Source of the DNA: Candidatus Saccharimonadota bacterium | Lineage (GTDB): Bacteria > Patescibacteriota > Saccharimonadia > Saccharimonadales > Saccharimonadaceae | Direction: 5' to 3' | DNA: 11,561 nt | Assembly: GCA_017515925.1 (NCBI GenBank) | Contig: JAFWEB010000038.1 | Location: forward strand, 1 to 11,561 | Part shown: piece by piece, positions 6,873-11,316 of the stretch | Numbering within the stretch: position 1 is the stretch's first letter | Layout: each line of letters starts with the position of its first letter | Notes under the pieces: generated by a model | What the model saw: only the letters and a program-made list of their open reading frames with translations | Databases searched by the model: none | What the model was told of the DNA's origin: nothing | Translations under genes and position numbers: made by a program

Positions 6873-7724
6873 CTACTCGCCAAAATCACTCTCAATAAGA
6901 TTATTCATTAAGTCTCTAAAATCCGTAGCGTTTTTCTTTGTTATGATTTTCTTCCCTGTTTGTGATTCTATCGCACGACGAGCGTCGCCTGCCACTTTGC
7001 CGCCACGACGAGCCACATCCTTGTGTTTATCCATGTCATCAGGCTTTTCCGCCTCAGAGATTTCTTTCGTAGATACTTCTGCTAGCATATTGAGAACTAT
7101 CTCCGATGTGCTCATATTGTCGCGGAGATTTTCCTTCTTTAGGCCTTTGTGATTCTTGTATTGCCTTGTAGTCATTCCAGACCAAGCCTTGGATATTTCA
7201 TCTGTCAAGATTGCATATTCTTTGCCCTTTTTGACACCCCTAATTCGCCATTCATCAGTCAATTCTTTGCGGACACGAATAGATAAGACCCTCTGGTGAA
7301 TCCAATCTTCGCTGTAACCCTTCTTGCGATAAGTTTCGACAGCGCGATTGATGGCAAGCTCTGGATCTATGGTTTCATCGATTCTTTCTTTGCCTACTTT
7401 TGCTAGCCACATTTTGAACGGCTCTGCTTTTTTGGATGGGATGGACTGGATAATGCGGAAAATGCCTTCTGTATCCGCCACATCCGTAGCATACCTTTTC
7501 CCATCAGAAGACATTAGCTTCAGTTGGTGACAAATTGTCACCAACTCACTCCCTTCCTCTGAAAGACGCTGCTTAAGTTTGTTCCAGTATTTTCTACCGT
7601 CTACACTATCTGTCAATACTTGCACCACATCCACCACAGAGAAGTACCATTCCTCTTTTTCTTCATCCCATACGGAGCGAATTGGCTGATTCTCAAATAA
7701 TTGCATTTTATCCTGGTTTGGCAT
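6873..7724 (-). CDS. BRO-N domain protein (phage antirepressor-like)
   Basis: The 283-residue protein begins with a BRO-N type fold. Characteristic stretches are IRSVWDEEKEEWYFSVVDVV, VDGRKYWNKLKQRL, DVADTEGIFRIIQSIPS and AEPFKMWLAKVGKERIDE. The N-terminal third is the domain found in baculovirus BRO proteins and prophage antirepressors, which binds DNA. The remainder (about 120-283) includes GYSEDWIHQR, ELTDEWRIRGV, EISKAWSGMTTRQYK and GLKKENLRDNM, and matches a long form common in bacterial mobile DNA. Its target is unknown. AAGGAG lies 7 bases before the ATG. The gene sits at the edge of the accessory island next to the repeat array, which fits a horizontally acquired gene. The family is clear; an antirepressor role here is an inference. 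Confidence 0.9.
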   Translation of the reverse strand: MPNQDKMQLFENQPIRSVWDEEKEEWYFSVVDVVQVLTDSVDGRKYWNKLKQRLSEEGSELVTICHQLKLMSSDGKRYATDVADTEGIFRIIQSIPSKKAEPFKMWLAKVGKERIDETIDPELAINRAVETYRKKGYSEDWIHQRVLSIRVRKELTDEWRIRGVKKGKEYAILTDEISKAWSGMTTRQYKNHKGLKKENLRDNMSTSEIVLNMLAEVSTKEISEAEKPDDMDKHKDVARRGGKVAGDARRAIESQTGKKIITKKNATDFRDLMNNLIESDFGE

Positions 7725-7739
7725 AAGAATTCTCCTTAT

Positions 7740-7756
7740 AAATTATTTAATAATTT
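7740..7756. repeat. 17-bp perfect palindrome upstream of the BRO-N gene
   Basis: AAATTATT and AATAATTT flank a single central T. The palindrome sits immediately upstream of the AAGGAG ribosome binding site of the BRO-N gene. This is a plausible operator or RNA hairpin position for autoregulation, but AT-rich palindromes also arise by chance. Confidence 0.4.
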
Positions 7757-7829
7757 GTTGGAGAGCACGGACTTCAGCCGAGAGGTCATCTATGGTTTAC
7801 TCGCCTCGCGGACCCTACCATGTAAACTA
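7757..7829. other. GC-richer structured intergenic stretch
   Basis: This gene-free block is clearly richer in G and C than its flanks. Two stems can be drawn: GACTTC/GAGGTC (7770-7775 with 7782-7787, loop of 6) and TGGTTTAC/GTAAACTA (7793-7800 with 7822-7829, loop of 21). Each contains one G-U pair that works only in plus-strand RNA. On the minus strand a short open stretch just upstream of the BRO-N gene reads DDLSAEVRALQQIIK before a stop at 7743-7745. It follows an in-frame stop at 7797-7799 and could be the tail of a decayed gene. I do not recognise any known RNA family here. Confidence 0.35.
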
Positions 7830-7834
7830 CCCTT

Positions 7835-7863
7835 ATGATACTCTGTTATTTTAAATAATACAA
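7835..7863 (-). promoter_or_regulatory. Possible promoter for the BRO-N gene
   Basis: On the minus strand TTGTAT (7858-7863) and TATCAT (7835-7840) are separated by 17 bp. The -10 box is one base from consensus and the -35 is weak. Use of this promoter would give a leader of about 100 nt that contains the structured stretch and the 17-bp palindrome. Confidence 0.3.
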
Positions 7864-7882
7864 GTATGAATTACAAATTTCC

Positions 7883-8476
7883 ATCGACGGCACGGTGGCA
7901 GAGATGTTTATTTCTCAAACTGATGATGATCCGACACATGACCACACATATTATGGTAATGGCTGTCCTAATCAATGGATGGTAACAGATGATAGGCCCT
8001 GCACTACGAGAATTGTAAAAGATAAAAATAATGAGGACCAAAAAAATGGAACTTATTACAATTTTCAAGCTGCAACATCTGGTAAAGGAGGTGCTATTAG
8101 CACTGACAACACAAATTCTCCTGATACTTTCTGCCCTCTTGGTTGGCAATTGCCTTACGGTGGCACGGGTGGGGATTATTATAATAAGTCTAGATCATGG
8201 GCATTTTTATTGACAAAATATGAAAATGGTTTGGCAAGCTTTCCATATTACCCTTTTTCATATGTGTTCTCTGGTTTTTATTACTGGGCTTCAGGATATG
8301 GGAAAGCGTATGATATGACATACGGCGGAACATATTGGTCACTCACAAATAGCAATAGCACAAGTGCATATAGGGCCAATTTATGGAATAATGGCGGCGA
8401 CATTTCTGGCTCCTCAAGGGGAGGAAAAAACTATGGAAGCACTATTCGTTGCGTTTATCATTTTAGTATCCCTCTC
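7883..8476 (+). repeat. Repeat unit 1
   Basis: The unit opens with the 16-bp junction atcgacggcacggtgg (7883-7898) and carries the 78-bp core at 8123-8200. It reads IDGTVAE and then departs from the other units (MFISQTDDDP). Upstream of the junction there is no LASL or RCV remnant, so the array is cut off here. The tail (GFYYWASGYGKAYDM, then YWSLTN) keeps the FISUMP pattern. Only 3 of 10 tyrosines in it use TAC. Confidence 0.7.
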
Positions 8477-9769
8477 ATCGACGGCACGGTGGCAGGAACA
8501 AATGTTGAATTTGGTGATTCAGATTGGATACACGACTATTCTTATTACGGAAATGGATGTCCAAACGAATGGGATACATCTTTACCACACAATGGTCAGT
8601 CGAACGTCTCCTGTTCGTCGCGCGAGATCCAGGCAGATGATGGAAACCAAAAAATTGGTACATATTACAATTTTAGCGCAGCTACAGTCCACACAAATAG
8701 GACGTTGTACGAAAATCAAAATGCTCCTGATACTTTCTGTCCTCTTGGTTGGCAACTGCCTTACAGTGGCACGGGTGGGGATTATTATGATAAGTCTAGA
8801 TCATGGTCATATCTACTTGAATACTATAGTATAGAAAATAGTCAAATTGGGTCACAAAAATTACAATCATATCCATTTTCATACATTAGATCAGGAATGT
8901 ACAGCTTAGCTACTGGACTTCTCTATGGGCAAGGAACATCTGGCTCAAGTGATGCTACTTATCATCCATCAATCACAAATAAAGCTAAACTCCAGCATTA
9001 CAGATTTAATATTACAAGAATACATGTCACACCGAATGATTTAGTTGGCAAAGGAGGCGTAGAACCATTTCGTTGCGTTAGGTTTTTAGCATCCCTCATC
9101 GACGGCACGGTGGCAGGAAATCCTGCAAATATGACGGTTGCACCGTATAAAGATGGAACTGTAGCTAACGATCACACATATTACGGACGTGGCTGTAATA
9201 ATAGTTGGGGTACCAGTGGCGAAGGTGGTTCTCAAACTCCTTGTCCAGATAGTAATGCTGGCGGACGATATGTTAAGACCGCAGATAATGAAACACAAAA
9301 GAATGGCACATACTATAATTTCCAAGCCGGAACTTCTGGTGCCGGAGCTGCTATAACTACCGACAATACTAATTCATCTGATACTTTCTGTCCCCTTGGC
9401 TGGCAGTTGCCTTACAGTGGCACGGGTGGGGATTATTATAATAAGTCTAGATCATGGAATAAATTATTTACGGAATATAACATCGCCTTTGGAGACGGAA
9501 CAGCTGCAGATGCAACCAAGATTAAGTCTTACCCATTTTCCTACGTCTACTCTGGCTACTACGGCTGGAATACAGGTCGCTTGTACTACCAGAGTAACGG
9601 TGGCGTCTACTGGTCCTCTACCGTAGTTAGTAGTACCAATGCTTACTACCTGCGTACGTGGTCTTCGGGTGTTAGATCTGCCAGCACGGGTAGTAAGGCG
9701 GGCGGATTCACACTTCGTTGCGTTAAGTTTTTAGCATCCTCCCATCGACGGCACGGTGGAAGGAACTGA
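7895..9769 (+). CDS. Tandem FISUMP/DUF1566-like surface-type repeat protein, units 1-3 (possible silent cassettes or pseudogene)
   Basis: This open frame encodes three tandem domains of about 200 residues. Each begins near IDGTVAG and ends at RCV. Conserved elements per unit are DHTYYGNGCPN, a QKxGTYYNFxAAT-like segment, FCPLGWQLPY with GTGGDYYxKSRSW, then PFSY, and a variable tail ending in LRCV or FRCV. Each unit has four conserved cysteines, which fits two disulfides outside the cell. The tail (YWSST, AYYL, GFTLRCV in unit 3) resembles the Fibrobacter succinogenes major paralogous domain. No signal peptide, sortase motif or membrane segment is present. The frame is open only from 7859, after TAA at 7856-7858. 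The GTG at 7895 lies inside the conserved repeat start and has no ribosome binding site, so the true start is absent or lost. The frame ends at TGA after a shift at the unit 3/4 junction. Confidence 0.6.
   Translation: MAEMFISQTDDDPTHDHTYYGNGCPNQWMVTDDRPCTTRIVKDKNNEDQKNGTYYNFQAATSGKGGAISTDNTNSPDTFCPLGWQLPYGGTGGDYYNKSRSWAFLLTKYENGLASFPYYPFSYVFSGFYYWASGYGKAYDMTYGGTYWSLTNSNSTSAYRANLWNNGGDISGSSRGGKNYGSTIRCVYHFSIPLIDGTVAGTNVEFGDSDWIHDYSYYGNGCPNEWDTSLPHNGQSNVSCSSREIQADDGNQKIGTYYNFSAATVHTNRTLYENQNAPDTFCPLGWQLPYSGTGGDYYDKSRSWSYLLEYYSIENSQIGSQKLQSYPFSYIRSGMYSLATGLLYGQGTSGSSDATYHPSITNKAKLQHYRFNITRIHVTPNDLVGKGGVEPFRCVRFLASLIDGTVAGNPANMTVAPYKDGTVANDHTYYGRGCNNSWGTSGEGGSQTPCPDSNAGGRYVKTADNETQKNGTYYNFQAGTSGAGAAITTDNTNSSDTFCPLGWQLPYSGTGGDYYNKSRSWNKLFTEYNIAFGDGTAADATKIKSYPFSYVYSGYYGWNTGRLYYQSNGGVYWSSTVVSSTNAYYLRTWSSGVRSASTGSKAGGFTLRCVKFLASSHRRHGGRN
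8477..9097 (+). repeat. Repeat unit 2
   Basis: The junction is at 8477-8492 and the 78-bp core at 8729-8806, differing from unit 1 at four positions. The unit is in frame with units 1 and 3. Its tail is the most divergent: the YWSS motif is replaced by ATYHPSITNKAKLQHY, although the final cysteine (FRCV) is retained. This suggests either relaxed constraint or strong diversification. Confidence 0.7.
9098..9743 (+). repeat. Repeat unit 3
   Basis: The junction is at 9098-9113 and the core at 9380-9457. The tail (SGYYGWNTGRLYY, VYWSST, NAYYLRTW, GGFTLRCV) is closest to the canonical FISUMP pattern. All 10 tyrosines between 9530 and 9660 use TAC, unlike units 1 and 4. At 646 bp from junction to junction, the unit is one base out of step and moves unit 4 into another frame. 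Confidence 0.7.
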
Positions 9770-10355
9770 TATACAAACTGGCAATAAAGACACAAATTCA
9801 AAACACGATCACACTTATTACGGAAATGGCTGCCCGAATACATGGGGTAATGATGGCGATCTTGGTTCAAATACAGCTTGTTCAACACGAATAGTGCAAA
9901 CCGATGATACTGAAAACCAGAAAAATGGGACATATTATCACAACCAAGCCGCAACACTCGGAGAAGGCGATGCAATGGGAACTGACAATGCGATTACTCC
10001 AGATACTTTCTGTCCTCTTGGTTGGCAGTTGCCTTACGGTGGCACGGGTGGGGATTATTATAATAAGTCTAAGTCATTTAATTATTTAATTACACTTTAC
10101 GGCTATTCTTCTGGTGAAATAGGTAGCAAAAAAATGAGATCATACCCAATAAGCTATGTTCTCTCTGGAAGGTATTACTGGGTTCAAGCTATGTTATATA
10201 TGCAAACAATCAGAACTCATTTTTGGACTTCAACCAATAAAAGTGGCGGAAATTATTATTATTTTAATCTTGGTCCAGACTATTTTGTAGATAACGATTT
10301 TACCGGTAAGAAAATGGGGCTAGCACTTCGTTGCATTCCCGAATTAGCAACCTAG
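9744..10355 (+). repeat. Repeat unit 4
   Basis: The junction is at 9744-9759 and the core at 10002-10079. The core is near identical to the others until its last nine bases, where AAGTCATTT replaces AGATCATGG. This is the terminal unit: the LRCI cysteine is followed by PELAT and a TAG stop, with no FLAS linker as in units 2 and 3. Confidence 0.7.
9756..10355 (+). CDS. FISUMP-like repeat unit 4 in a shifted frame (probable silent cassette or 3' part of a broken gene)
   Basis: A 199-residue single domain follows the same plan as the upstream units: DHTYYGNGCPN, ENQKNGTYYHNQAAT, DTFCPLGWQLPY, PISYVLSG, HFWTSTNKSG and LRCIPELAT. The four conserved cysteines are present. It has no signal peptide and no ribosome binding site. 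The GTG at 9756 lies inside the conserved junction and is only a formal start. The frame is open back to a TAG near 9734, giving HPPIDGTVEG, so the junction IDGTV is intact but one base out of register with unit 3. Removing one base would fuse it to the preceding frame and give an array of about 820 residues. It may be a real sequencing- or biology-level frameshift, or an independent cassette never meant to be read in place. Confidence 0.5.
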   Translation: MEGTDIQTGNKDTNSKHDHTYYGNGCPNTWGNDGDLGSNTACSTRIVQTDDTENQKNGTYYHNQAATLGEGDAMGTDNAITPDTFCPLGWQLPYGGTGGDYYNKSKSFNYLITLYGYSSGEIGSKKMRSYPISYVLSGRYYWVQAMLYMQTIRTHFWTSTNKSGGNYYYFNLGPDYFVDNDFTGKKMGLALRCIPELAT

Positions 10356-10367
10356 AAAAGCTTTCCA

Positions 10368-10566
10368 TGGCATCCGCGTTCACTCATTAGTATTATGGCT
10401 TTTCATTTTTTAAAAGCGCATTTCCCCTCTGTCAAAATTATGAGTAATTACCTTAAAAATGAAACGAAGTATTTCATTTTTATGGAACTGAGAGCTAATT
10501 TTGACGAGGCGGAAAGCAAGTACAAAATGGAAAACAGAATACTAATGAGTGAGTAACAGGATGCCA
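10368..10566. repeat. 199-bp imperfect palindrome (MITE-like fold-back element)
   Basis: The ends are exact inverted repeats TGGCATCC (10368-10375) and GGATGCCA (10559-10566). Further in, CACTCATTAGTATT on the left matches AATACTAATGAGTG on the right. GTCAAAATTA on the left matches TAATTTTGAC on the right. The centre is a perfect 10-bp stem, AAAAATGAAA/TTTCATTTTT (10455-10464 with 10472-10481), around a 7-nt loop. The geometric centre of the whole element falls on that loop. No coding frame is evident and no clear target-site duplication was seen. It fills the space between the repeat array and the LOG gene and could also end transcription from both sides. Confidence 0.7.
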
Positions 10567-10575
10567 GAGACAAAC

Positions 10576-11316
10576 CTATTTCTTATAGTGATCGTAAAGA
10601 TTCTCTTGAATCCTCTGATGCCCAATCTTATTTGCAGCTTTTACTACATCTTCAATATCATCTGTAATTTTATAAATGTTTAGATCTGGTGCTTTAATCA
10701 TTTTGTTTGCAAGCAATCGGCTACGGAAGAATTTATCTAGTGGCTTCCAATAAGATTTACCAAATAGAAAGACTGGCATACGAGGCATTTTTCCCTCTTG
10801 CATTAGGCAGAGAATCTCTGATAATTCGTCCAGTGTACCAAACCCACCTGGGAAATAGACATAGACTTTGGACGCCATAGAGAGCATCACTTTGCGGGCA
10901 AAGAAATAGTGAAATTCCATTTCGTCAGAAAGATATGGATTAGCAAATTGCTCGTGCTCTAGGGTGATATTTAGACCAATTGATCTACCGCCAAATTCAT
11001 ATGCACCTCTGTTCACCGCTTCCATAATACCTGGACCACCGCCTGTGATGACTGGATGACCGTTTTGTGCGAGTAGTCCCCCTAGTTCCCTAGCTTTGTC
11101 ATAATATTTGTCGCCTTCTCTGACTCTGGCCGATCCAAAAGCCGTCACGCCTTGTGGCAAAGTTCGAAGCAAAACCAAGCCTCGCCCCAGATCATAAGCA
11201 TAGGCCAAAGCTCGTTCCTGATCGTCTGGATGCACCTCTTTGAATAATTTGTGGAGGCGTTTGGTTAATTCTTTATCATCTAACCCATCTGGAGATAAAA
11301 TTTCTTCTTCATTCAT
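10576..11316 (-). CDS. LOG family protein (TIGR00730-type Rossmann fold phosphoribohydrolase)
   Basis: LOG proteins hydrolyse the N-glycosidic bond of nucleoside 5'-monophosphates. In plants and some bacteria this releases cytokinin bases from their riboside monophosphates; in most bacteria the natural substrate is unsettled. The 246-residue protein has a GSAR motif (61-64), GGGPGIMEA (92-100), a conserved RK pair (141-142) and the signature PGGFGTLDE (156-164). These cover the phosphate- and ribose-binding and catalytic residues of the family. The first 55 residues are an N-terminal helical extension. The ATG is one base after the stop of the upstream kinase gene and is preceded by AAAGGA, so the two are probably co-transcribed, which fits nucleotide salvage. 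Function beyond the family is an inference. Confidence 0.93.
   Translation of the reverse strand: MNEEEILSPDGLDDKELTKRLHKLFKEVHPDDQERALAYAYDLGRGLVLLRTLPQGVTAFGSARVREGDKYYDKARELGGLLAQNGHPVITGGGPGIMEAVNRGAYEFGGRSIGLNITLEHEQFANPYLSDEMEFHYFFARKVMLSMASKVYVYFPGGFGTLDELSEILCLMQEGKMPRMPVFLFGKSYWKPLDKFFRSRLLANKMIKAPDLNIYKITDDIEDVVKAANKIGHQRIQENLYDHYKK

Follow-up and report, generated by a model that had tools for sequence, protein, structure and literature searches.

The 11,561-nucleotide stretch analyzed here (the window) is contig C12 of genome G000, a Candidatus Saccharimonadota assembly of 516,375 bases in 90 contigs that is 65.7% complete. Between positions 7883 and 10355, on the forward strand, it holds an array of four tandem cassettes, each a start-less C-terminal part of a FISUMP protein that runs from one copy of a short junction sequence to the next. 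The cassettes occupy 7883..8476, 8477..9097, 9098..9743 and 9744..10355 and are 594–646 bp long, and an exact copy of the junction J (ATCGACGGCACGGTGG) opens each of them (7883..7898, 8477..8492, 9098..9113 and 9744..9759), at spacings of 594, 621 and 646 bp. Each cassette also carries a conserved 78-bp core (8121..8198, 8727..8804, 9378..9455 and 10000..10077, all on the forward strand) that departs from a single typed reference at 1 to 4 positions, and the wider repeat family around the cores (D1) measures 194 nt. Units 1–3 read through into one another; because 646 is not a multiple of three, unit 4, the last, is out of frame with unit 3, and it ends in a TAG stop. Only 8 open codons stand upstream of unit 1, with no in-frame ATG, GTG or TTG among them, and the earliest start available to an open reading frame finder is a GTG inside the junction. 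Units 1–3 matched the NCBIfam FISUMP family (TIGR02145) at 52.3 bits, above its cut-off of 41.65, and unit 4 alone reached 25.4 bits, under the cut-off. A Pfam search of the array gave no match above cut-off, an Rfam scan of 7700–10800 gave nothing up to E 0.5, and TRF found no tandem repeat. The layout agrees with a first-pass annotation made from the letters of the window, which had described four tandem units with a common junction and core, no start ahead of them, and a fourth unit out of frame. Its guess that the DNA came from a bacterium of the Candidate Phyla Radiation (CPR) was also correct, since a closely similar locus, L124, belongs to Candidatus Saccharibacteria.

Dispersed cassettes in the genome

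The window array is one of many in G000. The junction occurs there in 30 exact copies on 15 contigs, where 2.4e-4 would be expected by chance and a reversed-pattern control gave 0; three further copies with one mismatch add contig C10, and profile A1, built from 15 units, gave 40 matches. Complete cassettes stand behind 27 of these 33 junctions, the other 6 being cut by contig ends. All 27 are open, with 0 stops in 5375 codons, compared to 162, 508, 266, 409 and 257 stops in the other five frames. Pairwise nucleotide identity between the cassettes has a median of 56% (range 50–79%), and their openness is therefore not due to recent copying; along the cassettes, identity is 0.80 at the junction, 0.92 at the core and about 0.35–0.4 at the 3' end. 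Across 14 tandem junction spacings the reading frame was kept in 5, shifted by one in 6 and shifted by two in 3, a chance-like distribution. Because all cassettes are open while neighboring frames look random, each appears to be constrained singly, a pattern that plain decay does not fit.

To describe what precedes the arrays, we defined first junctions as those with no other junction within 900 bp upstream (n = 20, of which 19 are in G000 and one is in L124); two of those in G000, at C67:240 and on C35, come after the tail of another cassette. No in-frame start lies ahead of 15 of the 20, and one or more lie ahead of the remaining 5. Contig C63 offers a TTG with a ribosome-site-like GGAG but lacks a helix, and C61 lacks a ribosome site but has a hydrophobic stretch (1.63); the two signals, ribosome site and signal-like helix, coincide ahead of 0 of the 20. 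The sequences upstream of the junctions are unrelated to each other save for a short YTC, the exception being a common leader on C2, C35 and C62. The 5' edge of the cassettes is sharp, with unrelated DNA up to the YTC that directly precedes the junction, which argues for a defined process.

A near-palindrome, which may play a part in this process, marks the 3' boundary of the window array on the forward strand (10352..10570). The element is 219 bp long, with a DNA fold of -50.1 kcal/mol and a z of -9.9, and was found at 11 places in the genome, including the window's, at 86–100% identity. In the 7 copies with an assembled 5' side, the element comes directly after the last cassette; the other 4 are cut off within the element by a contig end. 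It is possibly a miniature inverted-repeat transposable element (MITE) or an array end signal.

The starts of several arrays have neighbors of their own. Short genes that resemble the toxins of toxin-antitoxin systems, PemK- and RelE-like by eye, stand directly ahead of three of them, as in superintegrons (L013:4700-5456, L021:2870-3356 and, on the reverse strand, L012:5500-8474). Repeated palindromes resembling TGGACACTTGTCC lie upstream of the array junctions on C61 and C77 (L018 and L020) and are perhaps the operators of a regulator. Two array starts, at L024 near 6261 and L010 near 1936, adjoin what by eye appear to be promoters of divergent tRNA genes.

Array content differs between strains by a whole cassette. 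The protein P0007 (518 aa) is another strain's version of the window array, and consists of a near-identical window cassette 1 with a local patch of differences, a whole foreign cassette, and a match to window cassette 2 (101/110) that is read in another frame. An identical stretch of 141 bases, opening exactly at TTC and the junction, forms the end of both C67 and C36 in G000; one cassette thus stands behind two different neighbors, and the sample holds it either in two copies or in two arrangements. The end of contig C35 and the last cassette of C17 likewise have the same variable region followed by different downstream sequence. The long reading frame of the window itself was found on 4 contigs in the protein collection (P0002).

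The neighbors of the array in the window are the housekeeping genes fusA, gatB, gatA, gatC and uvrB, named by eye from their translations, indicating that the array belongs to the chromosome and not to a stray contig. A gene at 6873–7724, transcribed away from the array, encodes a Bro-N domain protein (PF02498, E 7e-12), a relative of phage-type antirepressors. A phage origin was considered and rejected, with no match in a phage collection at the protein level and none in viral contigs.

Full-length proteins and cassettes in related genomes

A full-length gene with a junction is present in the sister genome G030. The N-terminal side of its 780-aa product has a hydrophobic stretch (RKLADGNCWMTENM), DDFIDGTLAG takes the position of the junction, and the remainder of the domain follows; unlike the start-less cassettes, the gene starts behind AAAAAAGGAGGTGTG. 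A search with the last 251 residues of this protein returned 17 proteins, among them P0006 (772 aa) and, from a 54-kb contig, P0008 (752 aa), which both have an N-terminal hydrophobic helix and the same junction as the window cassettes, and both run WAPTANFIDGTV. A profile built from the full-length proteins retrieved no solved relative up to E 1.

Alleles of the expressed gene, compared across assemblies and not within one cell line, are constant up to a switch point and differ beyond it. P0006 and P0008 are identical at 514/553 positions before the junction, at 57/108 from junction to core, and at 35/91 after the core. A third allele, P0121, whose N-terminal side is cut, agrees with P0006 at 33/33 positions before the junction and 129/211 after it. 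In the G030 type the switch point lies just past the core: P0001, which is G030's gene in another assembly, is identical to it at 566/566 and 122/122 positions to the core and then at 53/91, and this is where G030's dispersed cassettes begin. The cassette of P0006 also recurs, at 195/208 identical positions, in P0112, a 211-aa protein predicted to begin at the junction's GTG. Both ends of the match differ; at the C terminus P0112 has RCVSELAT, resembling the RCIPELAT at the end of the window array, and P0006 has RCVTRY. Such likeness with differing ends is the pattern expected from exchange inside a cassette.

These results bear on the proposal of the first-pass annotation that the array is a silent store for an expressed FISUMP-like gene elsewhere on the chromosome. 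Full-length genes of this kind exist in relatives (P0006, P0008, P0121 and G030), with an N-terminal helix, the same junction and differing cassettes behind it in P0006 and P0008, and one expressed cassette recurs in a protein that starts at the junction; the idea of a store is supported, and the partner gene was not found in the window's own assembly.

Profile A1 matched 35 of 36 genomes of the same genus and 0 of 24 others of the order, and most of the genus matches among those listed sit in long reading frames, as ordinary genes. The junction, at up to one mismatch, occurs in 4 of 174 genus genomes, the window's own included, and among the genomes whose loci were read dispersed cassettes are also present in G030 and G008. 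G125 has three junctions on a single 4.4-kb contig, and the rest of its 25 hits are weaker. L124, a sheep-ileum Saccharibacteria contig (RGIG5768) with three window-type cassettes, is probably the same as G125:C15 and is perhaps misbinned there; beyond the cassettes, its flank matches G000 only in short pieces.

Cassettes are most numerous in G030, where 84 hits in 25 stretches comprise the one full-length gene and 83 others. No in-frame start precedes 52 of these 83, and one precedes the other 31; a ribosome-site-like stretch was seen in 2, a hydrophobic stretch in 3, and both in 0. The G030 cassettes start near the core, at several close positions, and 50 of them contain 0 stops in 3300 codons. 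Two end in an identical 83 bp with all 10 of their differences ahead of that end, a sign of recombination. At L056-L075 stand three cassette families whose orientation alternates (head to head, tail to tail) and whose 5' ends differ by a few bases.

The protein collection was also searched with window unit 3, within length limits of 118–376 aa that kept full-length proteins from appearing. The search returned 378 clusters, of which 120 were listed; among these, the start lies at or beyond the junction in 100, and the rest have residues ahead of it, 1–15 in 10 proteins and 16–60 in another 10. P0121 and P0127, which are listed proteins with residues ahead of the junction, carry the constant part of the expressed genes.

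A reverse transcriptase and its template

Contig C82 of the window's genome carries a reverse transcriptase together with FISUMP sequence. Beside recO- and glyS-like genes, identified by eye, it holds a 276-aa gene, a 388-aa reverse transcriptase (RT) and two asparagine-rich FISUMP tails, the first on the opposite strand and the second at the end of the contig, which breaks off at the core. In G030 the same two genes, recO- and glyS-like, lie some 1 to 4 kb ahead of the full-length gene. The second tail of C82 would belong to the expressed gene. The RT matches PF00078 at E 2e-10, and its best solved-structure match is 8ub7 (molecule name: Reverse transcriptase) at E 6.6e-21, which we take to be the enzyme of the Bordetella-phage diversity-generating retroelement (DGR). 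Generic RT and group II intron models match it more weakly than their cut-offs, and its IGNLSSQ motif is presumably DGR-typical. The accessory protein Avd was sought in the 276-aa gene ahead of the RT, which matched no Pfam or NCBIfam family above cut-off.

The differences between the C82 template and the second tail are confined almost wholly to adenines, with 16/52 A changed compared to 0/49 C, 0/42 G and 1/54 T (1/145 for the three others together; p 1e-9). By these sequence tests, an RT and a template/variable-region pair, the G000 element qualifies as a DGR. The variable regions of DGRs lie in a C-type-lectin fold, which would be expected here too. Its signature recurs in the dispersed cassettes. 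The final part of window cassette 3, a variable region of retroelement type (9529..9723, forward strand), differs from the template at 18/51 A and 7/144 other bases (p 3e-7), and the same bias is seen in C67 (17/51 and 4/144), C17 (14/50 and 6/140), L124 (11/51 and 4/144) and the end of C35 (8/26 and 6/88). Some base changes are common to the dispersed cassettes and absent from the C82 tail, G148A, for example, being found in 5/5 dispersed sequences compared, and would fit an older version of the template. The silent-store proposal had missed the retroelement, and the contents of the store carry what appears to be retroelement-made variation.

DGRs are described as enriched in CPR bacteria (Roux 2021, PMC8144416), and an RT was found in 24 of 36 genomes of the window's genus (15/22 and 9/14). 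In G008 asparagine-rich tails stand beside the RT, and rows of such units lie on C54 and C32, several of them with in-frame ATGs. G017 has a textbook retroelement layout at L162:5707-7103, with an RT, an adjoining asparagine-rich template-like tail, and matching tails in longer genes. In G030, 32 distinct cassettes of the same length vary in NNY codons with a fixed third base, as a retroelement would make them; their 35 hypervariable columns comprise 16 at first, 14 at second and 5 at third codon positions. No template was found in G030: among 51 of its cassettes, none has more than 5 AAY codons at the 12 hypervariable positions, and the G000 template has 14 AAY codons.

Explanations and comparison with known systems

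We consider it probable that the window array is part of a dispersed silent archive, linked to a retroelement, that recombines into one expressed surface gene of FISUMP type. The archive would hold alternative C-terminal parts of one protein, each of roughly 200 aa that start with the junction (IDGTV) and run to the C terminus. In the expressed gene, some 555 aa of constant N-terminal sequence, hydrophobic helix included, would be followed by the junction and one cassette. The start-less cassettes would become useful once copied or recombined into that gene, with recombination through the junction, the 78-bp core and the CGTTGC end, which are common to all, replacing all or part of the displayed cassette. 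We infer that the process is homologous recombination running from archive to expressed gene. The DGR would hypermutate the last ~190 bp, the variable region, from its adenine-rich template, and some archived cassettes, window unit 3 among them, would carry regions made in this way; the archive may receive copies of the expressed gene, or its cassettes may be mutated in situ by the retroelement. The N-terminal helix and the usual roles of DGR targets (Roux 2021) suggest a cell-surface function, and the protein may serve in attachment or evasion.

Several observations weigh against this explanation. Only some of the genome's own cassettes carry the C82 signature: the bias is weak in C73 (24/49 A and 34/137 others; p 0.002) and absent in C2_2746 (9/34 and 28/86; p 0.81). 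No RT was found at E 1e-10 in G030, the genome richest in cassettes; the retroelement is therefore not needed everywhere, and its link to the G030 cassettes may be historical. No match to the N-terminal part of G030's gene was found in G000, in a search of a 66%-complete assembly that had no positive control. Nor was a recent donor found: among the fetched G030 cassettes the best candidate is 62% identical to G030's expressed tail, and about 72% to that of P0001, over most of the tail, and no exchange was seen within a single cell line. The start-less status of P0112 rests on the predicted start of its protein sequence. Finally, the median dN/dS (ratio of non-synonymous to synonymous substitution rates) of the cassettes is 0.42 over 119 pairs, in which dS is saturated (median 1.36).

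The adenine-biased change in several dispersed cassettes could also mean that they are remote targets of the retroelement, mutated in place by retrohoming and not donors for the expressed gene. Remote targets of DGRs are mentioned in Roux 2021 (PMC8144416), and in the listed database cassettes the template backbone, at 75% or more of non-asparagine positions, is present in 58 of 120, with an average of 11.6 residues per position at template asparagines and 3.2 elsewhere. Mutation would, however, gain start-less cassettes nothing unless they reached an expressed gene; between alleles the cassette changes as a whole from the junction on, a point well away from the variable region; and G030 has its cassettes without an RT. 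We regard this alternative as unlikely. Slightly less likely still is that these are mobile gene cassettes, moved by a site-specific or single-strand recombinase in the manner of integrons or MITEs, with surface variation as a by-product. The sharp 5' edge before unrelated DNA speaks for such a mechanism, as does the near-palindrome behind the last cassette in the 7 informative copies; yet the end of a mobile element need not coincide with one fixed place inside a full-length protein, as the junction does, and the G030 cassettes start elsewhere, near the core and at varying positions.

The remaining two alternatives are in our judgment very improbable. The first-pass annotation had named pseudogenization of a large surface gene as the simpler explanation, and decay of such a gene or gene family would account for the missing start, for the lack of a promoter noted by that annotation, and for the frame lost between units 3 and 4. 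It is contradicted by the open cassettes: the stops that would have accumulated inside units were not found in 5375 codons at a median identity of 56%, and the same layout recurs on 16 contigs and in two more genomes of the genus. That the cassettes are ordinary genes translated from the junction GTG is suggested by the 52 of 120 listed database proteins that begin there with M[AE]G-like residues, but the junction has no Shine-Dalgarno-like stretch ahead of the GTG, and the products would be without the signal helix and N-terminal domain part seen in P0006.

If the archive explanation is true, one lineage both invents and keeps variants of one surface protein, template-made variation can outlive its enzyme, as in G030, and hundreds of database proteins that begin at the junction are donor cassettes and not genes. 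A stronger form, which we hold tentatively and with somewhat more doubt than confidence, is that of a written archive, in which the variants that the retroelement invents are retained by the cell, once superseded, as start-less cassettes throughout the chromosome, to be brought back by recombination. Targeted hypermutation and silent-cassette storage would then be joined, in an ultrasmall symbiont, into a single heritable memory of its surface variants, with the G030 lineage living on an archive whose writer it has lost and the window's genome possessing both. The Saccharibacteria have reduced genomes, and their cultivated members live on other bacteria; the archive explanation makes it testable how these symbionts change what their hosts see.

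DGRs and silent-cassette stores are each known, and their combination is without precedent in the literature searched. No source joining the two was found in the available text of those covered, among them Roux 2021 (PMC8144416), PMC9938205 and PMC5745447, the last of which treats them side by side as separate systems; literature naming FISUMP together with Saccharibacteria was likewise not found. The features of a silent-cassette system appear to be present, in that start-less cassettes, an expressed gene with the junction (in relatives) and variants over a constant frame were all found. In Neisseria pilS/pilE and the mgpB repeats of Mycoplasma genitalium, dispersed partial copies feed one expressed surface gene, as we propose here, but those systems have no retroelement and their proteins are unrelated. 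The direct repeat of the Borrelia vls system is 17 bp long, and the junction that opens each cassette here is 16 bp long. Like vlsE, the system described here would have one expressed gene and silent cassettes without expression signals; it differs in that its cassettes are spread over at least 16 contigs, whereas vls is contiguous, in that their median identity is 56% and that of vls about 90% in the available text of PMC11499132, and in that they are joined to a retroelement. Cassettes 1–3 resemble FISUMP proteins (TIGR02145 / PF09603) in scoring above the NCBIfam cut-off, but of the domain the cassettes contain no more than what follows the junction. As in known DGRs, an RT adjoins an adenine-rich template, the variable region lies at the 3' end of a surface-type gene, and change is confined to adenines; here, however, the same genome also holds many dispersed, start-less copies of the target's C-terminal part, and alleles differ by whole cassettes at the junction, outside the variable region.

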